Assembly (NCBI GenBank): GCA_029287435.1
Contig: JARFRD010000086.1
Span: forward strand, 1-46,331
Reading direction: 5' to 3'
From: Gammaproteobacteria bacterium
GTDB taxonomy: Bacteria > Pseudomonadota > Gammaproteobacteria > SZUA-229
DNA: 46,331 nucleotides
The stretch's first letter is position 1. The number at the start of each line of letters is the position of its first letter. The notes below the pieces were generated by a model. It did not search any database. It was not told where the DNA came from and saw only the letters and a list, made by a program, of their open reading frames with translations. This document shows positions 3,727 to 25,880 of this stretch, in pieces. Both the position numbers and the translations under genes were made by a program.

Positions 3727-4173
3727 TTAATTATCCATCAATACACGATCGTCATACTCCGATTCAAAGAACAGCTTGTGCTTTGCCTCCTCCTTGGCAA
3801 GGCCGGTGATGACCTCTTTCAGGTGGCTGTCGGGTATATTGGCGGCCATGTCGGTATAAAGTTCGTAGGCAGCCCGTTCCCTTTTCATCGCTATGATCAG
3901 TGCATCCTGATAGGAAATGTCATCAGTAGCGTCAACTTCGACCAGGTAATCGGAAATCTTTAAGTCCAATACTTCTTCTTCTGGAGTCAGTTCGTGTTTA
4001 CCGTTTTTTACTGCCAGTAAACGCTTTTTGTGACTCATTTCCTCATCGGCAAAATCGAGCAATACCTGTTTCATACCGGCTTTTTCTGCACGTAATGCGA
4101 GCTCGGCATAGAAATCAGCCGCCTGCTGTTCCTGTTCGATGGCGTAATCCAGTATTTCATCAACGGTATTCAT
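3727..4173 (-). CDS. Ferritin-like diiron (rubrerythrin-type) protein without rubredoxin domain
   Basis: Two ExxH motifs (EEMSH, EEAKH), ferritin-like helical pattern; last gene of the minus-strand complex I-like operon. Confidence 0.8.
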   Translation of the reverse strand: MNTVDEILDYAIEQEQQAADFYAELALRAEKAGMKQVLLDFADEEMSHKKRLLAVKNGKHELTPEEEVLDLKISDYLVEVDATDDISYQDALIIAMKRERAAYELYTDMAANIPDSHLKEVITGLAKEEAKHKLFFESEYDDRVLMDN

Positions 4174-4201: not shown

Positions 4202-5998
4202 TTAATTTTCTGCATAGGCACCTGGCTTCAGGAACCTGTCAATTCCGCGAGCGGCATGGTGGCCATCTTCAATCGCGCTGATGGCATCAGCGGTGCGGTT
4301 AGCTACGTCACCGCCCACAAAAATTTTCTCCAGTTCAGACCGCTGGTATTCGCCGGGGGTAAACTTGCCCCATTCAATGGCCAGCTGCTCCTGTACAGCA
4401 GGCGTGATAAAGTCGAGATTACTTCCCTGGCCAATAGCTGAAATTATACAGTCGTATGTCTCCGTGTGCATGCGGTCTTCTTGCAATACCGGGCGCGGCC
4501 TGCCGCCTTTGGGGTCCTGTACCATTTCAGCTTCTCCCCATTTAATAGTCACCTGTTTTTTGCTGCCGGTGTCCATTATTTCGACCGGGATTGCCTTTTC
4601 GACAAGATTGCACTTCTCTTCCTGCGATTCCTTTATTTCTTCGGGATCGGCCGGCATTTCACTGATCCGGCGGCGGTAGAGGATATCGACATCTGCTCCC
4701 AGGCGTCTTGAAACCCGTGCTGCATCCATTGCCACGTTGCCGCCACCGATGACAGCCACTTTCCTGCCAATCCCCGGGTCTTTTCCCCTGGCGACATCGG
4801 CAAGTACCTGCAGGCCTGATAATACGCGCGGATGATCTTCTCCGTTTATGCGCATGCTTGAAGGCACTGAAAGACCAGTGGAGAGAAAGATGGCATCATA
4901 CTCGCCGAGCAGGTCTTCAAACATGACATCCTTACCGATAATGGTGTTGTACCTGATGTCTACACCAACAGAAATAATGTAGTCTATGTCCTTGTCGAGG
5001 GCATCATCGGGAAGTCGGTAACTCGGAACGCCATAGCGCAACATACCGCCACCCGTTTCCTGGGATTCATAGACCGTGACAGAATAGCCTTTCTTCCTCA
5101 GGTAATAAGCAGCACTAAGCCCACCCGGGCCGGCACCGATGACCGCAACCTTGTGTCCATTCTCGATAATCTCGCTATCAAGAATACGAGCGTAATCTAT
5201 GCTATCGACCTGGTCGACGATGAAGCGTTTCAACCAGCGGATAGCAATGGGCTGGCCCGTGATGCCGACAGGACAGACCTCTTCGCAACGGTGTGTGCAT
5301 ATACGTCCGCAGGTCGCCGGGAACGGATTGGTGCGATACATCAGCTGCAGGCCGGTCTCGAAATCACCGTCGCGTATACTGCGAATATAGTCCGGAACAT
5401 CCATGTGCGCAGGGCAGGTGGCAACGCAGATGCCACATTCGACACAGCGGTCAGCTTCCAGTTTCGCCTGCTCTTCGCTGTAACCATTGACGACTTCATC
5501 GAATGATTGCACGCTTTCATCGGCCGTCAACATATCCATATCAATACGCTTTGGCGGGTACAGGTGATAGCCCTCGGCACGGTGATAGCCCAGTTCGCTG
5601 TCCTGCCAGGGTTTTTCTTCGACGCCGGCAGTAAAGTGGTAATCAGTTGGATCGCGCGCCAGCCAGGTGTACTCGTTGCTCATGTGAAGGGAGTTGGCAG
5701 TACAGATGTCAACGCACAGCGCACACCAGCAGCAGCGACCGTAATCGAAGCGCGGACGCAGGCCACTGTCACCCGGGCGTCCTGAAAACTCCTCAACCGG
5801 TACCATATCAATGGCTTCATTCTGGCAGATGCTGTGGCAACTGCCGCAGCCGATACAGCTATCGGCGAGGTTGATATGAAAGCCCCGGTACGCAGGCGCT
5901 CCAGGTCTTTCCTCGATCGGGCGCATGTTGGTCCACGGCTTTTCAAATGCACGTTGCCAGACGAAGAAGGGGGAGAGCAGGTCTTTCAGACTCATCAT
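4202..5998 (-). CDS. Fusion: NuoI-like 2x[4Fe-4S] ferredoxin + GltD/NfnB-like FAD/NAD(P)-binding oxidoreductase
   Basis: N-term CIGCGSCHSIC and CCWCALCVDIC clusters; GltD-type CVECGICVATCPAHMDVP, FPATCGRICTHRCEEVCPVG; FAD motif VIGAGPGGLSAAYYL; NAD(P) motif VIGGGNVAMDAARVSRR. Confidence 0.92.
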   Translation of the reverse strand: MMSLKDLLSPFFVWQRAFEKPWTNMRPIEERPGAPAYRGFHINLADSCIGCGSCHSICQNEAIDMVPVEEFSGRPGDSGLRPRFDYGRCCWCALCVDICTANSLHMSNEYTWLARDPTDYHFTAGVEEKPWQDSELGYHRAEGYHLYPPKRIDMDMLTADESVQSFDEVVNGYSEEQAKLEADRCVECGICVATCPAHMDVPDYIRSIRDGDFETGLQLMYRTNPFPATCGRICTHRCEEVCPVGITGQPIAIRWLKRFIVDQVDSIDYARILDSEIIENGHKVAVIGAGPGGLSAAYYLRKKGYSVTVYESQETGGGMLRYGVPSYRLPDDALDKDIDYIISVGVDIRYNTIIGKDVMFEDLLGEYDAIFLSTGLSVPSSMRINGEDHPRVLSGLQVLADVARGKDPGIGRKVAVIGGGNVAMDAARVSRRLGADVDILYRRRISEMPADPEEIKESQEEKCNLVEKAIPVEIMDTGSKKQVTIKWGEAEMVQDPKGGRPRPVLQEDRMHTETYDCIISAIGQGSNLDFITPAVQEQLAIEWGKFTPGEYQRSELEKIFVGGDVANRTADAISAIEDGHHAARGIDRFLKPGAYAEN

Positions 5999-6007
5999 AC
6001 TTTCCTG

Positions 6008-7192
6008 TTATCTTTCAATCTCGGGTGGATAGGTATGCAGTGACACCATCAGTCCCGCGATGTCCGCAATATTGGTGCCGACCGCGAGGTTTTCCATGAC
6101 TGCGATGGCATGCGTGTAGCTCGGTCCGCGCACATGCACCCGGCGTATAAATTCAGAACCATCGGTCACCATGAAGTATCCGTATTCACCGCGAGTGCAT
6201 TCTGCCTTGACATAGGTCTGGCCGGGCGGAATTTTCCAGTGCAGCATATTTGGCATCTGCGCCTGGAACGGGCCGTCTGCCGGCATACGGTCAAGGATCT
6301 GGCGAATTAGCGATATGCTCTGTCGTGTTTCCTGCAGACGCACATATGATCGTTCGTAGGCGTCGGAATCAGTGCCGGTAATGGTGTCGAAGTCGAGCTG
6401 GTCATAGACAAGGTAGGGCTCATCCTTGCGCAGGTCGCGCTTGACACCGCAGGCACGGGCATTGGGGCCGACTATTCCATAAGGATCGATCATTTCCGGT
6501 GAAATGACACCCAGACCCTTAGACCGAGTTTTAAAAACAGTGTTGTTGAACATGACCTTTTCTACCTGGTCCAGCAGTTTTTCAGTCTTGTCCATGAGAT
6601 CACGTATACGTTCGTCAAAGCCGTCGGGTAGTGGTGCGCGTACGCCACCCGGAACCATGTACATGTGATAGATGCGCGCACCGGTCATTTCCTCGAACAG
6701 GTCGAGCACATAATCACGGAAGGTAATTGTCCAGTTGGGTACCGTATACTGGCCAAATGCACCGCTCATGCCACCGATCCACATCAGGAAACTGGCCAGT
6801 CGCATCATTTCCAGGTTCAGTGTACGTATCCATTGCGCCCGTTCCGGTGGCTCGATACCACTAAGGTTCTCCAGTGCAGCGGCATAGAGGTATTCGTTGA
6901 AGGCCGGTTCGGGAACCGCAATACGACAGACGACGGTGAAATTCTGGATGAAGGTGCGATGTTCCATCAGTTTTTCAAACCCACGATGGAGATAGCCGAC
7001 GTGGGTCTTGCAGTCGACTATCGTGTCACCATCGAGTACCAGTTCGAGCGACATATTACCAGTGATACCCGGATGCTGGGGCCCCTGCCAGATTTTTACG
7101 TATTTGCCGGATGCCAGGTCAACGGGCCCAGGCTGGGTAAAATCCAGTGAGGCAGCATGCCCGACAGACGTCTTGTTTACAGTCGATGACAT
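6008..7192 (-). CDS. Complex I 49-kDa (NuoD)-like / group-4-hydrogenase-like large subunit lacking NiFe ligands
   Basis: THVGYLHRGFEKLMEHRTF, ERAQWIRTLNLEMMRLASFLMWIG, EEMTGARIYHMYMVPGGVR; no CxxC pair present. Confidence 0.92.
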   Translation of the reverse strand: MSSTVNKTSVGHAASLDFTQPGPVDLASGKYVKIWQGPQHPGITGNMSLELVLDGDTIVDCKTHVGYLHRGFEKLMEHRTFIQNFTVVCRIAVPEPAFNEYLYAAALENLSGIEPPERAQWIRTLNLEMMRLASFLMWIGGMSGAFGQYTVPNWTITFRDYVLDLFEEMTGARIYHMYMVPGGVRAPLPDGFDERIRDLMDKTEKLLDQVEKVMFNNTVFKTRSKGLGVISPEMIDPYGIVGPNARACGVKRDLRKDEPYLVYDQLDFDTITGTDSDAYERSYVRLQETRQSISLIRQILDRMPADGPFQAQMPNMLHWKIPPGQTYVKAECTRGEYGYFMVTDGSEFIRRVHVRGPSYTHAIAVMENLAVGTNIADIAGLMVSLHTYPPEIER

Positions 7193-7731
7193 TAATTATC
7201 ACCTCCACGTGTCGGGTACAGCTGGGCCTTCATGTGCTCACGCGGGTCTTCACTGACTCGGCCCTCCCGGTGTCCAAATGTTTCTGTACTGTATGTCTTG
7301 GTGTTAAATTCACGGCGCATCGGAGGTATGTCATCCCAGCCTTCCAGGCAAAAATCTTCTTCCTGCCGCGGGCTGCCGGGGAAATTGATGCCAAACATTT
7401 CCCGCAGTTCCCGTTGATAGGTCCAGGCCTGTGCCCACAGCGTGTGAATGGACGTCATCTCGGCATTCTCGCGATCGATATCCACCTCGACGCCCAGTGT
7501 GCTCTTATCACCGTAGTTGTGCAGCATGTATACCAGCGTAAATATTCCCTGCTCGATGTAGTCAATACAGGTAATGAAGTTCAGGTGGGTATAACCCTCA
7601 CGGTCACGCAATTCCCGGATTAACCTTTCGGCCTGTTGTTTTTCGACCTTTAACGTCGTTATCGCGGGTTTACGATCTGATATATCGTAAATACCAAAAT
7701 CGGTAGCCAGTCTGTCGAGCAGAGTATTCAT
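7192..7731 (-). CDS. Complex I 30-kDa (NuoC)-like subunit
   Basis: DREGYTHLNFITCIDYIE, HTLWAQAWTYQRELREMFGINFPG, CLEGWDDIPPMRREF. Confidence 0.9.
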   Translation of the reverse strand: MNTLLDRLATDFGIYDISDRKPAITTLKVEKQQAERLIRELRDREGYTHLNFITCIDYIEQGIFTLVYMLHNYGDKSTLGVEVDIDRENAEMTSIHTLWAQAWTYQRELREMFGINFPGSPRQEEDFCLEGWDDIPPMRREFNTKTYSTETFGHREGRVSEDPREHMKAQLYPTRGGDN

Positions 7732-7737: not shown

Positions 7738-8370
7738 TCACCAGTTATAGTCGGGCATATCCCAGTTCTTGATCACCTTTTTCTGGTTGGCCTTGTACCA
7801 GTCGAGGTTTTCTACGTAGCGATTCGCACCGTCACAATTGCCGGCCTTGATGTCTTCTTTAAGCTCCATGATCGCGGCAAGCAGTGCTTCGGGTCTTGGC
7901 ATGCAGCCGGTTACATACATATCTACAGGAAGGTAGAGATCAAACTGGTTGATGGTATTGTAACTGTCGAAATACATGCCGCCGTTGGCCGGGCAGGAGC
8001 CGAGCGCAATGATGAATTTGGGACCCTGCATCTGTTCATAACTGCGGATGATCCGCTTCAGGGTCTTGACCGAAACATAGCCACCAATGATGAAAACTGA
8101 AGATTGCCGTGGTGTCGGTCGTCCGGCAATGCCAAAGCGGCTGATGTCAAAGCGTGCGGTCATCAACGGGCGAAGTTCAATAGAGCAGCAACCGGTACCA
8201 AAGGCCAGAATCCAGAGCGAGTTTGCTCTTGCCCAGTTGGCAAAATCTTCGACCGCTTTTATCGAATAGGGCTTGTAGGGTTCGGGCCGTGCGTTGCAAA
8301 ACAGTAGCTGTTCGTCCGCACTCAGGCCGGAATTTTCCATTGTGTTTTTCGAGGAACGGTCTTTACTCAT
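7738..8370 (-). CDS. Complex I 20-kDa (NuoB)-like subunit with N2-type cluster ligands
   Basis: GTGCCSIELRPLMTARFDISRFGI, ALGSCPANGGMYFDSYNT, LPVDMYVTGCMPRPEALL. Confidence 0.93.
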   Translation of the reverse strand: MSKDRSSKNTMENSGLSADEQLLFCNARPEPYKPYSIKAVEDFANWARANSLWILAFGTGCCSIELRPLMTARFDISRFGIAGRPTPRQSSVFIIGGYVSVKTLKRIIRSYEQMQGPKFIIALGSCPANGGMYFDSYNTINQFDLYLPVDMYVTGCMPRPEALLAAIMELKEDIKAGNCDGANRYVENLDWYKANQKKVIKNWDMPDYNW

Positions 8371-8400: not shown

Positions 8401-9336
8401 TCATGCAAGCACCATCTGTACATAAACGATAGACATGATGCCGATCAGGGTTGGAATCTTGAAGAAAAAACGTATCCCCTGGTCAACACGGAAGCGCGGG
8501 AACGCAACACCAACGACAATCGCAACCATGTATATCAAAAGTGTCTTGATCATCAGTTCGACCCAGCCGGTGGCACCGCCAAAGAACAGGTTCATAAACA
8601 GCACCAGCTTGGTCGCACCAAACAGGGCACGATTGATCTGCAGAAAACTGAGGTAGGCGCTGTGAAACTCGGTAGGCGGCCCGATCGGTATTTCCTGCGG
8701 CGCGAGGAAGATATCAAACGGTGAATATCCCGTCATGCCGAGAAACGCCAGCATGGCAGCCAGCGTGGCTACCCAGTTCGTAATCACGGTCCAGTTCTGC
8801 CAGCCACCCTGCTGGGCAGCTACGATTTCGGTAATCGACAGGGTGTCGTACTGGATCACTATGGAAATGACGGCAAGGGCAAACGGCACTTCGTAGGCCG
8901 TCATCTGCGACAGACCGCGGGCAATACCGATTGCGCTGTAGGGATGCCCGCTTTCACCGGCGCCAAGTGCCATGCCGAGCTGACCAAAAAACATAAAGTA
9001 GATCACCAGGAACAGGTCGCCAGCCATACTGAAGTTTGAGAACATCTCGCTACCGTAGATGACCGGGATGAAGGCCAGGGTGCCGATGCCACCCGCAATG
9101 CGAAAGACCGGCCCAAGGTAGAACATGATGCCATGGCTTACGGCGGTGCGTTTGAAAAAAGTCTTGGCAATATTGATGAACGGCTGCGAGTAGGGGATGC
9201 CGACACGTCCCTGGACCTTGGCAATAATACGCTCAATCAGGGCACCCACCAGCAGGCCATAAACAGTAACGATCAACAGGGTCAGGCCGAAGTAGCCAAC
9301 CCTGCCGAACCACTCTGACATACTTGCATAGATCAC
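8401..9336 (-). CDS. Complex I NuoH-like membrane subunit
   Basis: ERIIAKVQGRVGIPYSQPFINIAKTFFKR, multiple TM segments, ARGLSQMTAYEVPFALAVISI, FPRFRVDQGIRFFFKIPT. Confidence 0.92.
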   Translation of the reverse strand: MIYASMSEWFGRVGYFGLTLLIVTVYGLLVGALIERIIAKVQGRVGIPYSQPFINIAKTFFKRTAVSHGIMFYLGPVFRIAGGIGTLAFIPVIYGSEMFSNFSMAGDLFLVIYFMFFGQLGMALGAGESGHPYSAIGIARGLSQMTAYEVPFALAVISIVIQYDTLSITEIVAAQQGGWQNWTVITNWVATLAAMLAFLGMTGYSPFDIFLAPQEIPIGPPTEFHSAYLSFLQINRALFGATKLVLFMNLFFGGATGWVELMIKTLLIYMVAIVVGVAFPRFRVDQGIRFFFKIPTLIGIMSIVYVQMVLA

Positions 9337-12300
9337 AGTTCAAGCCCTCCGTTGACCAGGAACATACCGATGAAATACATGATGATGAACAGCGCATATG
9401 TCTGGCCGTTGCCGGTATAGAAAATTCTTAGCGATGAACCGAAGGTATGCGTCCATTCAACAGTCGCATTCCAGAACGCCGTCGCTCTCGGCCTGACAAG
9501 AAAACCGATCGCGCGATCGTAATGGGCAAAGAAATTGTAGGCGAAATGGGTTTCTTCGGGACGCCGGGGGCGTTCGGCTGCAAACACGATATTGAACTGT
9601 TCGACTTTTTGTATCTTCAGGGTAAGAGAAACCAGTAGGAGAATGATCAGCGGTATCATCCACACGCCGCCGACAATCGCCATGATCATGGGTGCGTTCC
9701 AGTTGCCGTAATGCGATACCAGCGAAGTGCCTTCCCACACCAGGGTGCTCGCGATCCAGGGGTCGATGGTTGCGGACAACGGGTCCAGCAACAATTTAGG
9801 ATAGGCCGAAATAACCATGATTGCTGCAATGAGTATGACTTGCGGTGCCAGCAGGATGGCCGGTGCCTCGCGCAGTTTTGCGTGTTCCAGTTTGCGTTGT
9901 CCGAGAAAAACTGTCTGCAGCAGGCGGAACATGTAGAGAAAGGCGACCGCGCTGGAAAAGAAGGCTAGCGCCGCGATCCAGTACCAGCCCTTGTCCATAA
10001 GGGCGTTGAACAACATCCACTTGCCGCCATACCCGGACAGGGGTGGCACACCTGACATTGCAATGATCGCAATCATGGTAAAGGTAAATGTCACCGGCAT
10101 GTTCTTGATCAGGCCGCCCATTTTATACATCAGGCGCTCATTGGTACGCAGGATAATGCCGGCAACGGCGAGGAACAGGATGCCTTTGAAAAGAAAATGA
10201 TTCACGGTGGTATACAGAGCCGAGATCCAGCCAAGATGGCTCATCAATGCGACCCCGGTGACGATGTAGCCCAGCTGTCCCATGCTGGAATAGGCAACCA
10301 GGCGCTTGATATCTTCCTGGAACACCGCCATCAGTGCACCGAAAGTCGCCGTTAATATGCCAATCCAGCCCAGTACATAGGCCGGGTCGAGACCTATATC
10401 GGCCTGTACGCCGAGATAGGCGGCAATGGTGACCAGTCCAAATATCCCTGCCTTGCTGACCACGGATGACAGGATGGCCGTGAAGTCATCATCGGCTTCA
10501 GCATAACTGCCCGGCAGCCAGATGTGGAGACCAAAGCCCCCCAGTTTGATCACGAAACCGGCAGCTAGCAGCCCAAAAACAAGCCCCGCCTGTTCGCCCG
10601 CGTCGCCCAGGTCAGCTAGCAGCAGGCTGCCAGTCGCGGCAAAAGCGACGGCAAAGCCGGCAAAAATAAAGTAGGCAGCACCGAGTGAAAACAGCAGGTA
10701 TGACAAAGCCGGTTTGAGGCCGTTTCGTCCAACAGCGATAAGCAGGTAGGACGAAAGTGTCATCAATTCCCAGCTAAAGAAAAACTCCAGTGATGTTCTT
10801 GCACGCAGTAATGCGGCCAGTGAAACGAGCAGCACTGCCAGTAATGGGTAAAATCCCCTGCGATTGTCTTTGCGGTAAAGTGCGCCGATGCTAATCAGTA
10901 GTCCCCCGCCGACAAGCAGGTAACTGAAGAGCAGGTTAATGCCAGTCAGGTTGTGGGTCAGCCCGATGCCGAAAAAGCCGACAATCAGCAACATCACTAT
11001 ATTTTTCAGTCTCCCGGGCAAACCATCGACCAGTAACATTGCCAGGCCGGCAGCAAGCGGCAGCAGGAAAGCCGGTACGGTAACGTCCATCAGCGTGGCC
11101 ATGCCGCTGCCCATAACGTATAACAGGAAAACGGCGATACCGACCGTTGCGGGTTGCCAGAAACGAATCCTCAGTGCCGGTAAGCCTGCAGTCCCCGTGG
11201 TGATATCGCCTTGCCATGCACGCGTGAACCAGCGGAACAGGTAAGCCGCTTCCAGCAGTGAACCGGCAAGCACCAGCAGGATCCAGCCGTAATAGTCGGC
11301 AGTTGCCAGCTGCATGATGAGCTCCCATTTACCCCAGAAACCGGGGAAGGGTGGCAGGCCAATCAGTGCGGCAATCATGCTGCCGAAGAGGAACAGCAGC
11401 CACGGGTGCTGACTTAATGCAGACCAGTCGTTTATTTGTTCACGGTTGACAATACCGGCAAGCCAGAATAGACCGGCCTTTGCCAGCAGGTGATTGATAA
11501 ACAGGCCACCAACAACAATGATTGCCATATCCATCGCGTCGAGCTGCTGCAGCATGACGAGCGCCATGGTCAGCAGTCCCATCTGTCCTATTGACGAGTA
11601 GCCGAGCAGTCGCCTGGCATTGCCCTGTTTAAGTCCAATGATGTTCGAGGCAAGGAAAGTGACGCCGCTGATGAGAGCAATACTGGGGAGGAAATCGCCC
11701 ATCAAAGGCAGCAGCTTGTAAAGTGCAAAGAGTACACCTGAAGAGACGCCGACAGAAATCAGTGATGCGATACCGCTGGGTGCTGTTTCATAGACATCCA
11801 GTCCCCAGCCATTAGCAGGGTAGGGCTTGAGCTCGATTAACAGACTGGTGAGTAGAAACAATGATGCAATTAAACCGATAGGCCCCTGAATCAGGTCACT
11901 GTGTACTATGATGTCATCAATATTCAGCGTACCGGTCTGGTAATAAATGAAAACAGTGCCGAGCAGAAAGAAGGCCGATGCTATCGATGTCGCAATAATA
12001 TATTTAAAACCCGCCGCAAGAACGCTCCCGGTACGTTCCATCCCGATCAGGGCATAGGTCGCAAGCGAAGTTATCTCGATGAAGATAAACAGGTTGAACA
12101 GGTCTCGGGTCATGATCATGCCGTTGATTCCCATCACCATGATCAGGTAGAGCAGGAGAGCGGAGGCGTGCTTGCGCAAACTACCGAGGAGATGCAGGGC
12201 CGCCAGGAATGCCACGCTGTTTAAGGCAAAGACGACACCCCCTTCAAACAGACCAAAGCGCATGTTGATTGAAAAAGGAGGAGATATGCCTGCCGTTTCG

Positions 12301-12503
12301 ATAAATATGGGTGGCGCACCTTTGATAATGGCAAGCAGGTTTACACCGGCAATAGTGGCAAGCGCCGCAAGTGCAGCGATGAACAGCAACACAGCTGACC
12401 CACGGTGTGCACGGTCGAACAGCGGAATGAGAAAGCCGGCGCCTAGAGCAATGACATAGATGCCGAGTGGATGAAGCAGCATATCAAGCAGGCTGTTCAT
12501 CAT
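9333..12503 (-). CDS. Fused double antiporter-like subunit (two MrpD/NuoL-M-N-type domains in one 1056-aa protein)
   Basis: Two successive proton-conducting transporter domains: NLFIFIEITSLATYAL...ELKPYPANGWGLDVYETAP...LLGYSSIGQMG and LEFFFSWELMTLSSYLL...FVIKLGGFGLHIWLPGSYAEAD...RLVAYSSMGQLGYI. Confidence 0.92.
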   Translation of the reverse strand: MMNSLLDMLLHPLGIYVIALGAGFLIPLFDRAHRGSAVLLFIAALAALATIAGVNLLAIIKGAPPIFIETAGISPPFSINMRFGLFEGGVVFALNSVAFLAALHLLGSLRKHASALLLYLIMVMGINGMIMTRDLFNLFIFIEITSLATYALIGMERTGSVLAAGFKYIIATSIASAFFLLGTVFIYYQTGTLNIDDIIVHSDLIQGPIGLIASLFLLTSLLIELKPYPANGWGLDVYETAPSGIASLISVGVSSGVLFALYKLLPLMGDFLPSIALISGVTFLASNIIGLKQGNARRLLGYSSIGQMGLLTMALVMLQQLDAMDMAIIVVGGLFINHLLAKAGLFWLAGIVNREQINDWSALSQHPWLLFLFGSMIAALIGLPPFPGFWGKWELIMQLATADYYGWILLVLAGSLLEAAYLFRWFTRAWQGDITTGTAGLPALRIRFWQPATVGIAVFLLYVMGSGMATLMDVTVPAFLLPLAAGLAMLLVDGLPGRLKNIVMLLIVGFFGIGLTHNLTGINLLFSYLLVGGGLLISIGALYRKDNRRGFYPLLAVLLVSLAALLRARTSLEFFFSWELMTLSSYLLIAVGRNGLKPALSYLLFSLGAAYFIFAGFAVAFAATGSLLLADLGDAGEQAGLVFGLLAAGFVIKLGGFGLHIWLPGSYAEADDDFTAILSSVVSKAGIFGLVTIAAYLGVQADIGLDPAYVLGWIGILTATFGALMAVFQEDIKRLVAYSSMGQLGYIVTGVALMSHLGWISALYTTVNHFLFKGILFLAVAGIILRTNERLMYKMGGLIKNMPVTFTFTMIAIIAMSGVPPLSGYGGKWMLFNALMDKGWYWIAALAFFSSAVAFLYMFRLLQTVFLGQRKLEHAKLREAPAILLAPQVILIAAIMVISAYPKLLLDPLSATIDPWIASTLVWEGTSLVSHYGNWNAPMIMAIVGGVWMIPLIILLLVSLTLKIQKVEQFNIVFAAERPRRPEETHFAYNFFAHYDRAIGFLVRPRATAFWNATVEWTHTFGSSLRIFYTGNGQTYALFIIMYFIGMFLVNGGLEL

Positions 12504-12874
12504 AATTTAGACTCCGTCAATTCATCGATCATGAGCGTCTTGCGTGCTTTGTATATGCGCACGGCAAATGACAGCATGACCGATGTGACACCCAGCCCGA
12601 TGACGATTGCTGTCAGCACCAGGGCAGAGGGCACCGGGTCAACGATGCGCTTTACCGCCTCGGCCAGCGGCACTGAATCATTGATAATCGGGGCTGTTCC
12701 ACCGGTGACGTAGCCAATCGAAACCATGACCATGTGAATGCCCGTGTCGATCAAAGAAAACCCTATGATTATGCGAATCATGTTGCGCTGGGTCAGCATG
12801 CCCCAGAGCCCGATAAGAATCAGTGCCAGGCCGCAGCAGAGAGCTATGAGTGAAATCGGAATATCTGGAATCAT
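12500..12874 (-). CDS. mrpC: Na+/H+ antiporter subunit C (MrpC/MnhC, NuoK-like)
   Basis: IGLWGMLTQRNMIRIIIGFSLIDTGIHMVMVSIGYV..., DPVPSALVLTAIVIGLGVTSVMLSF. Confidence 0.9.
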   Translation of the reverse strand: MIPDIPISLIALCCGLALILIGLWGMLTQRNMIRIIIGFSLIDTGIHMVMVSIGYVTGGTAPIINDSVPLAEAVKRIVDPVPSALVLTAIVIGLGVTSVMLSFAVRIYKARKTLMIDELTESKL

Positions 12875-13617
12875 GTCTTTTCCGGCCCCGTGTCGTCCTT
12901 GCGAAATCGGTCCAGTACGGCACTCAGTTCAAAACCGACCTTGAGCCCGATGAAACAATAGATAAGCGGAATCGCACCGGCACTGAACAGGTCACCATAT
13001 TCGCCCAGTCCGAGTATGCGGTTGTCGAGAAAGCCACCCGCAAGTATCACGCCAAGTACCCCGATGACGACATAGCTGAATCCCGATAGTGATTCCGTGA
13101 CCGCGATCAGGATGCGGCTGATGTGTGACTCGGGCAATGCCAGCAGCAGGAACATTGTTCCGGAAGCAATAATTGCGCCGCCCTGGAAACCGCCGCCAGG
13201 TGACAGATGGCCATTGATGAAAACATAAATACCGAAAAGAATAACCATCGGCAGCAGCAACTGCGTGGCAGTCTCCACAATTTCACTGGCGGGTTTGTGA
13301 ACACCGGCACGTTCTTCTCTACGGTCGGCTTTTTCCAGGTCTTCATCGTTCTGCTTACGGCGAGTACGTCGCAACAGCAGACCAACCCCGGCAGCGGAGA
13401 TGAAGAGCACGGTAACTTCGCCGAGTGTATCGAGTCCACGGTAGGTGACTACCACGGCAGTCACCAGGTTAGGCGCACCAAGTTCCTGTGGGCCCTTCTC
13501 GGCATAGTAACGTCCAAGCTTGAGCAGTGATTCGTTCTCGACATAGTTTGACGCAAGATTAAAGAAGATCATGGCCATCAGTCCCAGCATGATAAAAATA
13601 ATAATACGCTTTATCAT
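12871..13617 (-). CDS. mrpB: MbhE-like + MrpB/MnhB fusion subunit
   Basis: N-term GAPNLVTAVVVTYRGLDTLGEVTVLFISAAGVGLLL (MrpA C-terminal/MbhE-like) then INGHLSPGGGFQGGAIIASG (MrpB). Confidence 0.9.
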   Translation of the reverse strand: MIKRIIIFIMLGLMAMIFFNLASNYVENESLLKLGRYYAEKGPQELGAPNLVTAVVVTYRGLDTLGEVTVLFISAAGVGLLLRRTRRKQNDEDLEKADRREERAGVHKPASEIVETATQLLLPMVILFGIYVFINGHLSPGGGFQGGAIIASGTMFLLLALPESHISRILIAVTESLSGFSYVVIGVLGVILAGGFLDNRILGLGEYGDLFSAGAIPLIYCFIGLKVGFELSAVLDRFRKDDTGPEKT

Positions 13618-14009
13618 TTTCCGGTTTTCTCCGGTGGCGTTTGATCCACGTGCTCGCGCTCTTGTGTTACCGCGGCAGGACTGTCTTGCTGATCCATATG
13701 ATCGATAACCGTGGCATCTGTTTCATGAATGCCGATCGCATGGGAAGCGCGTGCCAGTGCATGCGAAGACACCGGGTTGGTCAGCATGACAAAAAATATC
13801 AGGATGATGAGTTTGAAAGTCCATGCCGGGTGCAGGAAAGCGAGACCGATGAGTAGCAGTATCGTTCCCAGCGTCGTTGCCTTGGTGCCTGTCTGGATGC
13901 GGTTGTACGTATCTGGCATGCGCAATACGCCCAGTCCCGCGGAGAACAGGAAAAAGCTGCCGCAGATCAACAAAATGTTACCGATGATTTCGTTGAGACC
14001 GAGACTCAT
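13614..14009 (-). CDS. mrpG: Na+/H+ antiporter subunit G (MrpG/MnhG)
   Basis: GSFFLFSAGLGVLRMPDTYNRIQTGTKATTLGTILLLIGLAF, FVMLTNPVSSHALARA. Confidence 0.9.
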   Translation of the reverse strand: MSLGLNEIIGNILLICGSFFLFSAGLGVLRMPDTYNRIQTGTKATTLGTILLLIGLAFLHPAWTFKLIILIFFVMLTNPVSSHALARASHAIGIHETDATVIDHMDQQDSPAAVTQEREHVDQTPPEKTGK

Positions 14010-14278
14010 TTATTTTCCCTGGAGGTCGTATCAATGCCCTGGGTTTTGCGTATGGCATAAAGAAAGATCATCGTTGTAAGGCCGGAGCCGATAGACGCCT
14101 CGGTCATGGCAACGTCCGGTGCCGCGAGGACGACGTATACGACCGAGGCGAAAAGACTGGCTAACCCGGCGCTGACAATAGCCCCCACATTGTTCTTAAG
14201 TATGACGGCCAGCAGGGCACTCAGCAGGATGCCTGCACAGAGCACAAGTGTGAGCAAAACCAGGATTGATATGTACAT
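14006..14278 (-). CDS. MbhD-like / DUF4040 subunit (MrpA C-terminal-type)
   Basis: NNVGAIVSAGLASLFASVVYVVLAAPDVAMTEASIGSGLTTMIFLYAI. Confidence 0.85.
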   Translation of the reverse strand: MYISILVLLTLVLCAGILLSALLAVILKNNVGAIVSAGLASLFASVVYVVLAAPDVAMTEASIGSGLTTMIFLYAIRKTQGIDTTSRENK

Positions 14279-14283
14279 GATGG

Positions 14284-14559
14284 TCAGAGTCCTCCTTCCA
14301 GATAGCGCGCCACGGCCAGTACCCCGAGAAAACTCAGTAATCCGTATACCAGTCCAACATCCAGGTAGATATAGCGTTCCGCCTGGTGTGCCAGCAGTGC
14401 AATTAATGCGATCGTGACGATAGTCAACAGGTCGATAGCAACCACGCGGTCAACTGTGTCGGGCCCGATCACCAGGCGAACAATACCGAACACGATGCTG
14501 AAAAAAATGAGAACAGCAGAAATAATAACCGTGAGTTCCGTGAAGCCAATTTCAGTCAT
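14284..14559 (-). CDS. mrpF: Na+/H+ antiporter subunit F (MrpF/MnhF)
   Basis: RLVIGPDTVDRVVAIDLLTIVTIALIALLAHQAERYIYLDVGLVYGLLSFLGVLAVARYLEGG. Confidence 0.9.
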   Translation of the reverse strand: MTEIGFTELTVIISAVLIFFSIVFGIVRLVIGPDTVDRVVAIDLLTIVTIALIALLAHQAERYIYLDVGLVYGLLSFLGVLAVARYLEGGL

Positions 14560-14565
14560 AGATAC

Positions 14566-15096
14566 TTACCCGTAAATAACCTTGAGGTATTTTTCGAAGC
14601 GGCCGGAGATGGCTTCGGCCGCGGCAACAGGATCGGTTGTGCTTATGTTGATCCAGTGCACAAAGAGAGAATCGTCCTGGATGTCGACCACCAGTGTCCC
14701 GGGGGTTAAGGTGATCGTGTTGGCAAGTGCCAGCCTTCCCATTGGAGATTTAAGCTCTGTTTTGATTTCAACGATAGCGGGACTGATGTTGATGCGCGGT
14801 GAGAATACTAGCAACATCACATTAAGATTGGCTTTCACCAGTTCGTAAAAAAATACGCTCAGGTATATCAGGTAGTAATAGATAACTCTTGGTGACCAGC
14901 GCACCACACTGTATACCTGAGCAAAGGCAGCAAATGCCAGTGCGATAACAGCCGATATAGATACACCTGCAATGATTGTATGCGACGCTAGTGAGCCATT
15001 AGCTAATAGCCAGATAATTAACAGCGTCAACCAGAGGTTGATAAACTGCAGCGGCAGGTTGATTGTATTTTTCATATGATTGCTTGTTTTTGTCAA
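14566..15096 (-). CDS. mrpE: Na+/H+ antiporter subunit E (MrpE/MnhE); start could also be at 15075
   Basis: FINLWLTLLIIWLL, ELVKANLNVMLLVFSPRINISPAIVEIKTELKSPMGRLALANTITLTPGTLVVDI. Confidence 0.9.
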   Translation of the reverse strand: MTKTSNHMKNTINLPLQFINLWLTLLIIWLLANGSLASHTIIAGVSISAVIALAFAAFAQVYSVVRWSPRVIYYYLIYLSVFFYELVKANLNVMLLVFSPRINISPAIVEIKTELKSPMGRLALANTITLTPGTLVVDIQDDSLFVHWINISTTDPVAAAEAISGRFEKYLKVIYG

Positions 15097-15152
15097 ACAA
15101 CACAGCTCATCATAATGATTTGCTGCTTAACTGAAAAAGCTGATCCCGGGTC

Positions 15153-15461
15153 TTATTTGAGCATCGCTTCAATTTCCTCTTCCGCTTCTATCCAGTGTTT
15201 ATAATCCTCGCCATGAGGAAACCCGGCTTTCTCCCATTTGTAATAAGCACGCATGGCAATCATCATCCGTTTTTCATTGTCTGAGATTGCAACAGCTTTG
15301 TTTTGTGCTTTACTATTGTCGGCTTTTTTGTTCTTTGCAGTAGTCTTTGCTGCTGTTTTTTTCTTTACAACTTTCTTTTTTACTGCCTGTTTTTTTACTG
15401 ATTTCTTCCTGGTCGCTTTCTTTTTGGTCGGATTAGATTTTACTGTTTTTTTCGTCGCCAT
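15153..15461 (-). CDS. Lysine-rich (histone H1-like) N-terminus with DUF2934-like C-terminal domain
   Basis: KKATRKKSVKKQAVKKKVVKKKTAAKTT tail followed by IAMRAYYKWEKAGFPHGEDYKHWIEAEEEIEAML. Confidence 0.7.
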   Translation of the reverse strand: MATKKTVKSNPTKKKATRKKSVKKQAVKKKVVKKKTAAKTTAKNKKADNSKAQNKAVAISDNEKRMMIAMRAYYKWEKAGFPHGEDYKHWIEAEEEIEAMLK

Positions 15462-16013
15462 GGTTTATTCCTCGCAGTGAATAAATTTGTCGTTGAGAGT
15501 GATATTTTTTGTTAGGCAATATGATCGTAAGTAGAAGCGCAATACTGGATGCATGGACAGCAATGCGTTTAACTGTAATAACATAAAAGACCATGAGCTG
15601 GTTTTAGGTGTAACTTTAATTTGCACATAACTTAATAATTCATTTCCAGTAAATTTAGAATTTCCTTTCTGTCTTTAATTCTCTGTTGATATCAAGAGCG
15701 ACAAACTGATGCATTGAATTATTCAGTGCACAGTATTAGTGCTATTAAAATTATTTAGAAATCTACCGAAGGATTGTTTAACCATACCATTGTTTTATCC
15801 CATGAATTCTAAATTAATAGTGTAAGTAACTGAAATATATATTGATACTGAAATTGCATGGAAACTGGTCCAGGTCTTCATGTATTCATCTACAGCATAA
15901 GGTTCAGTTGTTACAGTAGATACCTAGCAAGATGTCTGCCAACCTGTAAACCAGGTACAAAACTCATCGTATATTTCAGGACGTTCATTCCACCCACATG
16001 TAAATTGTGTACC

Positions 16014-17741
16014 TTATTCATTCACCATGGATATATAACCAGTTGGACACTCGCTGGCGCATAGGCCGCAACCCTTACAGTAGTCATAGTCAAATACATA
16101 GAAGGAACCATCAAAAGTAACTTCATTGGTTTTCAGTACGGCACTATCAGGGCAGAGAGTCCAGCAGTTATCACAACGCAGGCAGTTACCGCAGGCGAAA
16201 CAACGATTGGCTTCATGGGCGGCCTGAAGCCCTGAAATACCTCCTTCGATTTCTGTTTCGCATGTACGCTCTTCAACAGAGAGAATTACCTGTTCTACGC
16301 GCGAACTGGGCTCAAAATATTCCATATTGAGACTATTGAAATGAACAGGCTCTGATTTATTTATTGTCGGCAGTTGTTGCTGCCTCAGTTTTGCAGCGAT
16401 AGCTTCTGCGGCAATTCTGCCGTTACCAATAGCCTCAGTGACAGTGCCACCATTACCTTCTACTGCATCACCGCCAGCGTAGATGTTTTCTTTGCCTTCA
16501 ATCTGTCCCCAGTCATCTACGCTGAAATAGGATTTGCCATCGAGTAAAGTTTCCATGCCAGCTGCATCAACCACCTGCCCAATGGCCGGAATAACCTGGT
16601 CAACGTGGAGTATACTTTCCGTTCCTTCAAAGGCTACGCGATGCAGACGGCCTTCCTCATCGGGTAACTTGCGCATACGCAGGATTTCTATGCCGGTCAG
16701 TTTTTCACCGCGCAGGATCAAGCGCTTAACGCCATGATGATCATGTATTTGCACACCTTCTTCGAGTGCCTGCTCGATCTCCCGTGGAATAGCGCGCATG
16801 TCATCTGCTGCAGGCTTATCTGGATCTGGCAGGCTACTGTGAATGACGATATGTGTGTCGACACCGTTACGATTCAGAATGCGTGCGATGTCAATAGCAG
16901 TATTACCACCGCCAATGACGGCGGCACTTTTCATCGCTGGCAGGCTTGCTACATCACTCCATTGTTTGAGCAGGTGTAGTCCTTCATGCAGATCATAGGG
17001 TGTAACACCATCCACACTCCATTCGTTACTTTTCATTACACCGGGAGCGAGAAATACTGCTGCATACTCTTGCTGAAGTTCAGGTAAGTGGATTTCACGC
17101 CCCAGCTTATGCCTTGATTTAAACGAGATGCCGGTATCCAGCAGACGTTCAATCTCTTTTCTTACGATCTCACGGGGGAGACGATAGTCCGGGATAGTGA
17201 ACAGGGTGCCGCCGGCTTCGGAAAGTTCATCGAATACCGTTACCTGCAGTCCATGGCGAATCAGATGATAGGCTGATGCCAGTCCTGCCGGTCCGGCTCC
17301 GACGACAGCAACGTGAGGTGCATTTTCAGCAGCAGGTGATACCGGGTATGCCCAGTTTTTTGCGAGCGCCTGATCACCTAGATAGCGTTCAATACTGTGA
17401 ATAGCTAACGGCTCATCGTATTGCCCGCGGTTGCATACTGATTCACAGGGATGAGGACAGACTCTGCCAGTGATAGCAGGGAGCGGATTGATGCTAACCA
17501 GTAATTCCCACGCTTCACGCGGCTTGTCTTCGTCCAGCAGAGCAAGGTATGCCTGGGGGTCTTCACCTGCCGGGCATGCAGAATGGCACGGAGCATTCCT
17601 GTGTGTGTGAACAGGCCGCTGAATGCGCCATGAACCAGTTTTGTATACCAGTGTGGTACCGGGATATGCGAAGCCGCCACGGGTTAGTTTCGATTCCATA
17701 CTGCTGATCCTGTTTATGCCCAGCGCATGCCGCCACGACAA
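16014..17741 (-). CDS. GltD-like FAD/NAD(P) oxidoreductase with C-terminal 2x[4Fe-4S] PorD-like ferredoxin domain (probable start at 17699)
   Basis: APCHSACPAGEDPQAYL, VVGAGPAGLASAYHL, VIGGGNTAIDIARIL, C-term CFACGNCLRCDNCWTLCPD and CKGCGLCASECPTGYISM. Confidence 0.9.
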   Translation of the reverse strand: MSWRHALGINRISSMESKLTRGGFAYPGTTLVYKTGSWRIQRPVHTHRNAPCHSACPAGEDPQAYLALLDEDKPREAWELLVSINPLPAITGRVCPHPCESVCNRGQYDEPLAIHSIERYLGDQALAKNWAYPVSPAAENAPHVAVVGAGPAGLASAYHLIRHGLQVTVFDELSEAGGTLFTIPDYRLPREIVRKEIERLLDTGISFKSRHKLGREIHLPELQQEYAAVFLAPGVMKSNEWSVDGVTPYDLHEGLHLLKQWSDVASLPAMKSAAVIGGGNTAIDIARILNRNGVDTHIVIHSSLPDPDKPAADDMRAIPREIEQALEEGVQIHDHHGVKRLILRGEKLTGIEILRMRKLPDEEGRLHRVAFEGTESILHVDQVIPAIGQVVDAAGMETLLDGKSYFSVDDWGQIEGKENIYAGGDAVEGNGGTVTEAIGNGRIAAEAIAAKLRQQQLPTINKSEPVHFNSLNMEYFEPSSRVEQVILSVEERTCETEIEGGISGLQAAHEANRCFACGNCLRCDNCWTLCPDSAVLKTNEVTFDGSFYVFDYDYCKGCGLCASECPTGYISMVNE

Positions 17742-18736
17742 ACTGTATCGGCTCCATCTGAGTCTTGAGCATCCATGCCTTCGCCACGTAGTTTGAAGTG
17801 TTTAATGTTGTGATCAGCCAGTGCCTGTATATGTGCGAGTTCTTCAATAGCACGAACATCACCTTGCTGAAACAGGTGCCGGAACCGCTGTTGCAGTACC
17901 AGATAATCGGTCACAGGTTTGGGGTTACGGATTGGCATGCTACCAATCATTTCCCTGCTTTCAAGCTCAATGACCGGGAATAGTCCGGTCTGGACAGCCA
18001 GGCGCGCAACCTTGATGCTATCTGCTCCGTCATGGCCCCAGCCCAGCGGGCAGGGACTATGGATCTGGATAAATGTCGGCCCTTCTATTTCCATTGCACG
18101 ACGAATTTTCTTGCGAAGATCAGAGGGGTATGCGACTGATGCTGTGGCAGCGTAGGGTATATGATGTGCAGCGACAATAGAGAGGATATCTTTCTTAAGA
18201 TTCTGTTTACCCATACGTGCACTGCCCGGCGGCGATGTCGTTGTCATGGCCGCATGCGGTGTCGAACTGGAACTTTGAATACCGGTGTTCATATATGCTT
18301 CGTTATCGAAGCAGACAAAAAGAACATTGTGTCCTCGCTCCAGCATACCCGAAAGTGACTGGAAACCGATATCAAAAGTACCGCCATCGCCAGCGAAGGC
18401 TAATACTTTGGTGGGTTTCCCCTGGGCCTTGAGTGCGGCTTCCATACCTGCTGCAATAGCGCCTGTATTTTCGAATAAGGAATGCATCCATGGTAGTCGC
18501 CATGCAGATTCTGGCCATGGTGTAGTAAAAATCTCCAGGCAACCTGTCGCATTTGCAATCATCACATCAGGGCCTGCGGCTTCAGTGACCAGCCTGGCGG
18601 CAAGTGCTTCACCACAACCCAGGCAGGCACGATGGCCGGATTCAAGGCCTTCAAAGCGCGGCTGGTTTTTTCGCAACTGCATGAGTGTCTCGGGCGTGAC
18701 TGTTTGTGTATCTTCATTCATATCAGTTTTACTCAA
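17714..18736 (-). CDS. 2-oxoacid:acceptor (ferredoxin-type) oxidoreductase, beta (TPP-binding) subunit
   Basis: HRACLGCGEALAARLV, AGDGGTFDIGFQSLSGMLERGHNVLFVCFDNEAYMNTGIQSSSSTP. Confidence 0.92.
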   Translation of the reverse strand: MSKTDMNEDTQTVTPETLMQLRKNQPRFEGLESGHRACLGCGEALAARLVTEAAGPDVMIANATGCLEIFTTPWPESAWRLPWMHSLFENTGAIAAGMEAALKAQGKPTKVLAFAGDGGTFDIGFQSLSGMLERGHNVLFVCFDNEAYMNTGIQSSSSTPHAAMTTTSPPGSARMGKQNLKKDILSIVAAHHIPYAATASVAYPSDLRKKIRRAMEIEGPTFIQIHSPCPLGWGHDGADSIKVARLAVQTGLFPVIELESREMIGSMPIRNPKPVTDYLVLQQRFRHLFQQGDVRAIEELAHIQALADHNIKHFKLRGEGMDAQDSDGADTVCRGGMRWA

Positions 18737-18747
18737 TACATCCCTGT

Positions 18748-19941
18748 TTAATTTGTAGCGGCACCAGTACCATGGTCTTCGGCTGACAGTTTCTCCAGCT
18801 CCACATCTATGATTGAAAAAGGTGCTGGCACGGCTACTTCGACCTGCTTGTGCAGTTTGCGGTAGATTTCCAGTGGCATATCACGCCCACCAAGACCGAC
18901 AGCAAAACTGTGCACTCTTACCTCGCTTGCCATATGTGTCAGTGCTGCCTGCACTTCCGATGAAACGATACCCCCGAAACCGGGTGACAGTGCGCGCTCA
19001 AGAACAATGAGATCAGTTAGTTCAGAACATGCCTGGCGAAGAGCATCGACAGGGAATGGCCTGTAGGAACGCAGTTTGATTAATTTAGTAGCGGGCAGTT
19101 CTGTGAAGGTATCACGTGCCGCGCATAATGTGCCAAAAATCGATCCCAATGTCAGGATTCCGATGTGTGCATCTGCAGGCCCGTCAACACTGAGTAGACT
19201 GCCCGCAGAACGACCGGAGAGCTGTTGCCAGTCAGTATCGGCTGCAACGATTTCATTGATGGCATCAAGTAGTGCATGGTGATGTGAATGCCTTGCTTCA
19301 GAATAGTGATCCGGAGAAACCAGAGTACCGACACTGGTTGGTTTCAATGGATCGAGTGCACGAGAGAAGTTGAATGGCGGCAGATACGTATCGACCATTT
19401 TCTGGTCAGGGATATCGATCGGTTCAAGAGTATGCGTCAGCGTGAAGCCGTCCATGCAAACCATCACAGGCAGCTCGGTTGCTTCTGAAATTCGATAGGC
19501 CTGGATAGTGGTATCAACAGCCTCCTGATTGTCTGAGCAGTAAAGCTGTATCCAGCCGGCATCTCTTACAGCCATTGAATCCTGCTGGTCATTCCAGATT
19601 GAAAGTGGGGCTGATATTGCCCGGTTAGCGCAGGTCATCACCATCGGTATACGAAGTCCGGCGATATTGTAGAGCACCTCGCTCATTAACAGGATGCCCT
19701 GTGAAGCACTCGCGGTATAGGTCCTTGAACCGGCACTGGCTGCGCCGAGGACTAGCGATGCGGCAGAGAACTCACTCTCCACACTCACCAGTTCGCATTC
19801 CATTTTGCCATTGGCGACGAGTTTGGCTATGTTTTCCACGATATGGGTCTGTGGCGTAATAGGATAGGCTGCCACAACTTGTGGACGGCATAGCGCGACT
19901 GTCTGGGCAATGGCCTGTGATCCTTCTAGTGCTTTACGCAT
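18748..19941 (-). CDS. 2-oxoacid:acceptor oxidoreductase, alpha subunit (ORF track start 20001; MRKALEGSQ start at 19941 preferred)
   Basis: MRKALEGSQAIAQTVALCRPQVVAAYPITPQTHIVENIAKL, ESEFSAASLVLGAASAGSRTYTASASQGILLMSEVLYNIAGLRIPMVMTCANRA. Confidence 0.92.
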   Translation of the reverse strand: MRKALEGSQAIAQTVALCRPQVVAAYPITPQTHIVENIAKLVANGKMECELVSVESEFSAASLVLGAASAGSRTYTASASQGILLMSEVLYNIAGLRIPMVMTCANRAISAPLSIWNDQQDSMAVRDAGWIQLYCSDNQEAVDTTIQAYRISEATELPVMVCMDGFTLTHTLEPIDIPDQKMVDTYLPPFNFSRALDPLKPTSVGTLVSPDHYSEARHSHHHALLDAINEIVAADTDWQQLSGRSAGSLLSVDGPADAHIGILTLGSIFGTLCAARDTFTELPATKLIKLRSYRPFPVDALRQACSELTDLIVLERALSPGFGGIVSSEVQAALTHMASEVRVHSFAVGLGGRDMPLEIYRKLHKQVEVAVPAPFSIIDVELEKLSAEDHGTGAATN

Positions 19942-20506
19942 TGGCTGTTTGTTTCCACAAATTTGCTGGTATAGTTTTAGATGCAGCTTCAATAAGTGCA
20001 ATATTTTTTTCCAGTACTTCGCCTTTGAAGCGTTCTTTCAGTGAATCAGTTAATGAAGACACAGGAAGCAAATCCGTGAGCTGAAGAAAAGCTGACAATA
20101 GTGCCGTATTGGGTACTGGGCGCCCCAGGTACTGCAGCGCCAGTTGTGTAGCCGGCAAGGTTACCAGACTGCTGTGGACAATGTCTTCACTGGCATAGGC
20201 TTCGCTGCTTTTCGATGTGTTCAACAAAATACTGCCGCCGCTTTTCAGGCCTTCCGTGATACCGGGGACATTCATCAGGGCATCATCCTGAATAATGAGA
20301 AAGTCTGGAGATGCAACCTGACAGCGGCGCCTGATTGGTTCATGATTGAGTCGCACGAATGCGACTACTGGTGCACCGCGGCGTTCCGCGCCAAAAGCGG
20401 GAAATGCCTGTGCGTGCCATCCTTCATTGATGGCAGAGGTCGCAAGCAGGTAGGCTGCGACGACATTTCCCTGTCCGCCACGGCCATGTATTCTTACCTC
20501 AATCAT
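19934..20506 (-). CDS. 2-oxoacid:acceptor oxidoreductase, gamma subunit
   Basis: MIEVRIHGRGGQGNVVAAYLLATSAINEGWHAQAFPAFGAERRGAPVVAFVRL. Confidence 0.93.
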   Translation of the reverse strand: MIEVRIHGRGGQGNVVAAYLLATSAINEGWHAQAFPAFGAERRGAPVVAFVRLNHEPIRRRCQVASPDFLIIQDDALMNVPGITEGLKSGGSILLNTSKSSEAYASEDIVHSSLVTLPATQLALQYLGRPVPNTALLSAFLQLTDLLPVSSLTDSLKERFKGEVLEKNIALIEAASKTIPANLWKQTANA

Positions 20507-21934: not shown

Positions 21935-21936
21935 GT

Positions 21937-23385: not shown

Positions 23386-23446
23386 ATGAACAACGGTATT
23401 CAGTGTTAAGTCAGTAACAGGTGTTTCTTATGATATGCATTAATAA

Positions 23447-23462
23447 GCAAGCTATATGCCAA
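23447..23462 (-). promoter_or_regulatory. Putative sigma-54 promoter (-24/-12) for the ATP-grasp/alpha-E operon
   Basis: Minus strand TTGGCATATAGCTTGC: GG-N10-GC, 62 bp upstream of the start at 23385. Confidence 0.55.
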
Positions 23463-23561
23463 TATCAAGCGCACAGGATGTTGCTAGTTAACTAAAGAAA
23501 TGGAGCATACGCTAATTGATTCATGATTACTTGCACCATTTCGGGCACTCTACGATTGCAT

Positions 23562-23582
23562 ATTGCACTCATTAAGTGCAAT
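23562..23582. promoter_or_regulatory. NtrC-like palindromic enhancer (UAS) candidate
   Basis: ATTGCACT-catta-AGTGCAAT, perfect 8-bp arms; contains TGCAC-N7-GTGCA, the NtrC-type arrangement. Confidence 0.55.
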
Positions 23583-23673
23583 TGCTTTATTTCGAAAAGA
23601 GCCAGGCATTTGAAGGTATACATAATCATCAAAATACTAAAGAGTTTGTTGATTAGATTGTAACAATAAAAAA

Positions 23674-23689
23674 TGGCGCATTTATTGCA
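23674..23689 (+). promoter_or_regulatory. Putative sigma-54 promoter (-24/-12) for the HPPD-like gene
   Basis: TGGCGCATTTATTGCA: GG-N10-GC, 47 bp upstream of the ATG at 23737. Confidence 0.55.
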
Positions 23690-23736
23690 TTTTAAATTAG
23701 CAATTTCAATCTACATCTCTAATTTACATCTAGTTA

Positions 23737-24990: not shown

Positions 24991-25030
24991 GAGTCTGGAA
25001 TAAGCTTGTTTGCGCAACGATAGTCACAGG

Positions 25031-25828: not shown

Positions 25829-25880
25829 CTATTTAACACCATATAAAAATGACAGTAGGATTTATAGAGCTTTCATTGAT

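Follow-up and report, generated by a model that had tools for sequence, protein, structure and literature searches.

The operon and its complex class

Located at 4202-5998 on the minus strand of the window (the whole stretch of 46,331 nucleotides analyzed here) is one intact ORF of 598 aa with an ATG start. It encodes a fusion of an MbsN (NuoI)-type ferredoxin with an NfnB-type flavoprotein, a proposed NAD(P)H input subunit. Upstream of it and on the same strand lie the genes of NuoD/MbsL (6008-7192), NuoC/MbsK (7192-7731; Pfam Complex1_30kDa), NuoB/MbsJ (7738-8370), NuoH/MbsM (8401-9336) and a 1056-aa fusion of two antiporter-like subunits, MbsH and MbsH' (9333-12503). These are followed by MrpC/MbsG (12500-12874; NCBIfam subunit C), an MrpB-type, MbsE-like subunit (12871-13617; NCBIfam subunit B), MrpG/MbsC (13614-14009; TIGR01300, over the cut-off), a DUF4040/MbsD-like subunit (14006-14278; NCBIfam PRK08378 and PRK12504), MrpF/MbsB (14284-14559; NCBIfam subunit F) and MrpE/MbsA (14566-15096; TIGR00942). 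The last gene of the operon, at 3727-4173 on the same strand, encodes a rubrerythrin-like diiron protein (PF02915) without a rubredoxin domain, which is conserved after the fusion in gammaproteobacterial loci and is more diverged in L034-L037, L045 and L046. The gene order is kept in the loci with a complete region, apart from a swap of G and DUF4040 in some distant loci; L014 and L046 have two separate genes in place of the double antiporter.

Searches against solved structures placed the subunits searched nearest to the MBS of Pyrococcus furiosus (6u8y). NuoD matched 6u8y_L (MbsL) with 328 bits, the top-scoring NDH-1/complex I chain reaching 230; NuoB matched 6u8y_J with 211 bits (best competitor 139) and NuoH matched 6u8y_M with 145 bits, followed by MBH with 61 and NDH-1/complex I with 57. 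The double antiporter matched 6u8y_H from residue 18 and 6u8y_X over residues 506-1044, with MBS chains first, and the N-terminal domain of the fusion matched MbsN (6u8y_N) with 68.6 bits versus 42.5 for the best NuoI of complex I. The 12 genes preceding and including the fusion account for all 13 subunits listed for MBS, Mrp unit included (PMC8415708). Since the searched subunits match 6u8y best and the MBS subunit list is fully covered, the encoded complex is, judging from sequence, a member of the MBS/MBX class, and the fusion is assigned the place of MbsN/NuoI, adjoining NuoD.

Genes for NuoE, NuoF and NuoG were absent from the operon according to the ORF list, Pfam and NCBIfam; to our knowledge, the known members of the MBS class also lack NuoEFG. 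The first-pass annotation had suggested that the ORF could be a one-protein NAD(P)H/Fd input in place of the whole NuoEFG module. A one-protein input in a Nuo/Mrp complex without NuoEFG is indeed what the operon points to, whereas the idea of a lost NuoEFG falls, as the complex is of the MBS class and the fusion stands in for MbsN/NuoI. A complex I deprived of NuoEFG, or a replacement for complex I, was rejected on the MBS-class match and on the NuoF-type genes found in most genomes of the order; because these are retained, the complex is an additional one. The window genome (2.62 Mb, 77% complete) is that of a marine sediment bacterium, and the two NuoF-profile matches in this incomplete assembly had lengths suggestive of RnfC and a HoxF-type protein.

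Domain organization of the fusion

All coordinates of the fusion refer to the minus strand. The NuoI/MbsN-type domain with two [4Fe-4S] clusters (residues 6-121, at 5636-5983), whose best solved relative is MbsN 6u8y_N, bears the motifs CIGCGSCHSIC (Cys48/51/54/58) and CCWCALCVDIC (Cys89/92/95/99 in CxxCxxCxxxC spacing, Cys90 being extra). Pfam Fer4_7 was detected over residues 47-102 and the NuoI profile TIGR01971 (NCBIfam) aligned to residues 13-121. A two-cluster Fer4_20 domain follows (residues 164-264, at 5207-5509; Pfam E-value = 1e-29) with eight conserved cysteines, found in a third motif, CVECGICVATCP (Cys185/188/191/195), and a fourth, CGRICTHRCEEVCP (Cys230/234/238/242). The flavoprotein half, covered by Pyr_redox_2 over residues 283-579 (E-value = 5e-29), includes the N-terminal part of the FAD-binding half (residues 280-375, at 4874-5161) with the first Rossmann motif, GAGPGG, near residue 288, and an NAD(P)-binding domain (residues 405-515, at 4454-4786) with the second, GGGNVAMDAARVSRRLGADVDILYRRR, near residues 418-444. 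The ferredoxin motifs, the additional Cys-rich segment and the separate FAD and NAD(P) Rossmann motifs had been noticed in the first reading of the 598-aa ORF and all were recovered here. The clusters, whose number had been put forward as a check, are two of the NuoI type and two of the Fer4_20 type, and the 16 cluster cysteines are unchanged across 20 aligned members, one row having N masking at Cys230.

The structure of the fusion predicted from 12 sequences had a mean pLDDT of 63, with the NuoI part poor (most of the NuoI half <50) and the flavoprotein half usable and matching NfnL (5jca). Foldseek and sequence searches grouped the flavoprotein half with NfnL/NfnB, NfnABC, StnC, GltD and DPD. 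The whole protein was matched by NCBIfam PRK13984 (NF010590) over residues 2-591 with 673 bits (E-value = 3e-202), below the curated cut-off of 946 bits. Given the same architecture and operon place and a score below that cut-off, the fusion is best described as a divergent relative of PRK13984.

Relatives and distribution

The fusion is not an unprecedented protein, as its full-length architecture is already an NCBI family, PRK13984, which includes Thermotoga maritima; among 14 control genomes searched, T. maritima carried a member above the cut-off. The architecture is thus known and unnamed, the family being labelled only 'putative oxidoreductase'. No description of the fusion, PRK13984 or TM1217 was found in the open-access literature; subscription-only reviews may treat it. 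A search for the same fusion next to Mrp/Nuo genes in other genomes, as had been suggested, was productive, with the fusion adjoining NuoD in about 20 loci. Identity was 74-81% within Gammaproteobacteria and about 38-48% for fusions from elsewhere in the phylum, while Caldisericaceae, Omnitrophota and Bacteroidales also have the in-frame fusion at about 40% identity. It was found in nine of the 54 genomes of the order and in six out of a phylum-wide sample of 399; the window genome is included in these counts.

Compared with gammaproteobacterial relatives, the fusion had a dN/dS of about 0.05-0.07 over its whole length, and the linker gave 0.07-0.11 in comparisons free of saturation; dN was about 0.14-0.16 and synonymous change was near saturation. 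A frameshift or an assembly artefact joining two ORFs was rejected, because the in-frame fusion occurs in about 20 other loci of several phyla and purifying selection extends across the junction. A remnant was also observed in L010 (CP070738, near 9950-11531), where an N-terminally truncated fusion has the rubrerythrin gene alone beside it and the Nuo/Mrp operon is missing.

The flavoprotein half: nucleotide loop, K257 and mosaic history

NAD(P)H is well supported by sequence as the donor class of the complex. The loop that is expected to set nucleotide specificity (residues 441-444, at 4667-4678) reads YRRR in the window clade, its basic residues following strand 2 of the nucleotide domain and resembling YRRT of the NADP(H)-binding NfnL/NfnB, while position 443 is acidic in the other full family members examined (ALED, SLED, ALEP, ALEQ, CLEE), so that ED, EP, EQ or EE stands at this place in all relatives outside the clade. 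In thioredoxin reductase and AhpF, the contrast between a basic and an acidic loop predicts NADPH and NADH, respectively. The loop motif accordingly predicts an NADPH-type enzyme in the window clade and NADH-like ones elsewhere. This contrast with every other member found is the feature that appears to be new here, and it makes donor specificity directly testable. Acidic-loop fusions were also seen in L045 (G419, same genus) and L046 (G410), both of the same order; both loop types therefore occur in the lineage.

For NfnB, it has been proposed that a Glu ligand keeps the potential of the FAD-proximal cluster low. At this position, which is occupied by Glu in NfnL/NfnB, Lys was aligned in 20/20 fusion members (K257, at 5228-5230, predicted to serve the cluster as a ligand or gate). 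The same Glu-to-Lys change is present in StnC (K170), whose FAD no longer bifurcates (PMC10482914). Neither was a gene for an NfnA-type partner (FAD, [2Fe-2S]) detected in the operon. Flavin-based bifurcation, which the first-pass annotation had offered as an option, thus finds no support and appears unlikely; because of the Glu-to-Lys change shared with StnC and the lack of NfnA in the operon, linear electron transfer is the better reading.

The two parts of the flavoprotein seem to differ in history. In the NuoD tree, the window clade is sister to L034-L037 (support 100/100). Residues 164-375 of the fusion are compatible with this grouping (p-AU 0.36), whereas residues 405-590, tested after removal of the specificity loop, are in conflict with it (p-AU 0.0007), which sets the NAD(P)-binding domain apart. 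In a 31-row tree the C-terminal half stays inside the fusion family (support 96/94), though at a different place, while in a reduced tree it adjoins the NfnB group with a branch length close to zero. A simple domain swap from NfnB was not borne out, given the placement within the fusion family. Either the nucleotide half was exchanged or it evolved very fast on the branch of the window clade, and the length of that branch is compatible with fast divergence.

The NuoD/NuoB region

MBS is devoid of the quinone residues corresponding to H38 and Y87 of Nqo4, and one iron of its proximal cluster has no cysteine ligand (PMC7684303). NuoD of the window has T and V at the positions of H38 and Y87, which are lost in MbsL too. 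It also lacks both NiFe-remnant cysteines of MbsL, which are not catalytic in MBS (PMC7684303). In NuoB, the cluster is bound by three cysteines in most relatives, which is the open-site arrangement of MBS. An extra adjacent cysteine (GTGCC), as in complex I, was found in the window, the near-identical L001, the second operon copy, L002 and L005, while NuoB of other close relatives reads GTGCG, both forms being within one clade. This cysteine looks derived, since more distant relatives do not have it. It might block the iron site on which MBS relies, and to that extent argues against an exactly MBS-like mechanism; the GTGCC/GTGCG variation within one clade is a natural test of the open-iron-site mechanism.

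Second operon copy and genomic neighborhood

A second complete copy of the operon is present on another contig (L024/L025, G000:C177), between 6PGDH and the genes of 6PGL, G6PDH, glycogen phosphorylase, glycogen synthase and branching enzyme. Upstream of this copy are PPDK and a pyruvate oxidoreductase paralogous to that of the window. The latter, also located upstream of its operon, consists of PorB, PorA and PorG (17714-20506, minus strand; NCBIfam), all of the same 2-oxoacid oxidoreductase, and of a GltD-PorD fusion (16014-17741, minus strand; PRK12771, TIGR02179) joining an NAD(P)-type flavoprotein to the delta subunit, with a paralogue beside the second copy. With PorD fused to a GltD-type flavoprotein, this pyruvate oxidoreductase may hand over NAD(P)H rather than free ferredoxin. 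Among relatives, 6PGDH is located upstream in L004, L007 and L015 and phosphoglucomutase downstream in L004, L007, L012 and L015. NAD-linked hydrogenase-type genes are present in L015, as a NuoE/NuoF-type fusion and a NuoG-type N-terminal protein (Pfam), and were recognized by eye in L004, together with a small-subunit-like protein.

In the order, 37/54 genomes have dsrA and 44/54 have RuBisCO. The window genome has dsrA, and RuBisCO was not found in its incomplete (77%) assembly. A link of the fusion with Dsr-dependent sulfur oxidation was considered and dropped, since dsrA is not enriched in fusion carriers (6/9 versus 31/45 non-carriers). On another contig of the window genome (G000:C212, about 9731-18018), dsrA was seen with a 659-aa GltD-type flavoprotein, probably DsrL, about 6 kb away.

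Comparison with known systems

MBS/MBX complexes are regarded as standing between hydrogenases and complex I and as being driven by ferredoxin. A member of this pump family equipped with an NAD(P)H flavoprotein shows a second route to a pyridine-nucleotide arm, independent of NuoEFG. With the MBS of P. furiosus (6u8y, PMC7684303) the window complex shares the subunit complement, the best matches, the absence of the quinone residues and the Mrp Na+ unit; it differs in having MbsN fused to an NfnB module, MbsH fused to MbsH' and an extra cysteine beside the NuoB cluster, and in lacking the two remnant cysteines of MbsL. The MBX of T. maritima is up-regulated with sulfur and has been modelled as ferredoxin-driven (PMC9431562). 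Its genome shares the fusion family, a likeness drawn from the family match, and this puts the ferredoxin assignment of the Thermotoga MBX in question. A putative Mrp-Mbx has also been mentioned for the Riftia symbiont Endoriftia, likewise among sulfur-oxidizing Gammaproteobacteria, with its direction given as unknown (PMC11636981); here the likeness is one of description. The StnC/NfnABC large subunit (8oh5, 9bov, 9n5u; PMC10482914) similarly combines an NfnB-like NADPH module with an iron-sulfur domain and has Lys for Glu, but its fused domain is NuoG-like and feeds a soluble bifurcating module, in contrast with the NuoI domain and membrane pump of the window. With NfnB/NfnL of NfnAB the fusion has in common the fold, the FAD and NADPH sites and the YRR loop, while it differs by Lys in place of the Glu ligand, by the NuoI extension and by the lack of NfnA.

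Proposed function and alternatives

We propose, giving it an even chance, that the fusion is the electron-input subunit of an Mrp-type complex of the MBS/MBX class that pumps H+/Na+ at the expense of NADPH and passes the electrons to a sulfane-type acceptor. In archaeal MBS, MbsN is reduced by ferredoxin (PMC7684303). In the window complex, NADPH would instead reduce the FAD of the NfnB/GltD-type extension on MbsN, from where electrons would pass through the two Fer4_20 clusters and the two NuoI clusters to the N2-type cluster of NuoB. They would leave into the NuoB/NuoD/NuoH chamber, and the change there would power the two antiporter-like units and the Mrp Na+ unit. The acceptor would most likely be polysulfide or another sulfane; as electron transfer from NADPH to polysulfide is only mildly exergonic, a low pumping yield is expected. 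A sulfur-oxidizing autotroph could in this way reoxidize, when better acceptors are missing, the NADPH obtained from stored glycogen via the pentose phosphate pathway and pyruvate oxidoreductase, and the complex is a concrete candidate for O2-free energy conservation from stored glycogen in sulfur-oxidizing bacteria. In favor of this reading are the MBS-class matches and subunit complement, the missing quinone residues, the three-cysteine NuoB site of most relatives, K257, the YRRR loop, the pentose-phosphate and glycogen genes around the second copy and the related genes near the operon in relatives, and the prevalence of dsrA and RuBisCO in the order. Weighing against it are the extra NuoB cysteine of the window and its second copy, the lost MbsL remnant cysteines, the lack of dsrA enrichment in carriers, the low expected yield, the motif-based nature of the NADPH assignment and the poor model of the NuoI part. 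More tentatively, the nucleotide half may have been exchanged in one gammaproteobacterial lineage, turning an NADH-type MBS-class complex into an NADPH-driven ion-pumping enzyme for sulfane (or another acceptor) that is dedicated to anoxic glycogen use by sulfur oxidizers; we consider this possible, and less probable than not.

Complex I relatives are reversible, and the same complex may work backwards, the ion gradient pushing electrons to NADP+ from a donor at the NuoB/NuoD site, be it reduced sulfur or some other compound, and so supplying NADPH for CO2 fixation. An order mostly positive for dsrA and RuBisCO is in line with such a role, and an NADPH-type loop would suit biosynthesis; yet the second copy sits beside NADPH-producing pentose-phosphate and glycogen-degrading genes and not beside Calvin-cycle genes, and we regard reverse working as rather unlikely. 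Exchange of both ferredoxin and NAD(P)H at the fusion is another reading, to which we also assign a low probability: the complex would be an ion-pumping ferredoxin:NADP+ oxidoreductase, or would have two donors and be fed by the pyruvate oxidoreductase as well. The entry of ferredoxin at MbsN in MBS (PMC7684303), the early proposal of P. furiosus Mbx as a ferredoxin:NADP+ oxidoreductase (PMC6349859), the ferredoxin donor in the T. maritima MBX model (PMC9431562) and the pyruvate oxidoreductase cluster beside both copies all speak for it. Nevertheless, that oxidoreductase has its own fused GltD-type flavoprotein and may deliver NAD(P)H itself, and direct transfer from ferredoxin to NADP+ inside the fusion would bypass the coupling site.

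The complex I-like vicinal Cys pair of the window NuoB and the clear homology of NuoD with Nqo4 could be taken to indicate an alternative NADPH:quinone oxidoreductase, that is, a form of complex I having a less elaborate input arm. This is improbable when set against the T and V that replace the quinone head-group residues H38 and Y87 and the closer match of all searched subunits to MBS than to complex I. Least credible, and in our estimate very improbable, is that the NfnB module bifurcates NADPH electrons between ferredoxin and the membrane complex. Its fold is that of the bifurcating NfnB/NfnL and it retains the Arg of the FRLP/YRLP motif, but this Arg is non-diagnostic, being present in StnC too, and the invariant Lys and the missing NfnA-type subunit point the other way.

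Other genes in the window

A Lys-rich protein of 102 aa with a C-terminal DUF2934 is encoded at 15153-15461, in the interval separating the Mrp operon from the genes of pyruvate oxidoreductase. Further along, at 20963-32727, inspection by eye pointed to clustered genes of the alpha-E, circularly permuted ATP-grasp and transglutaminase-like types.
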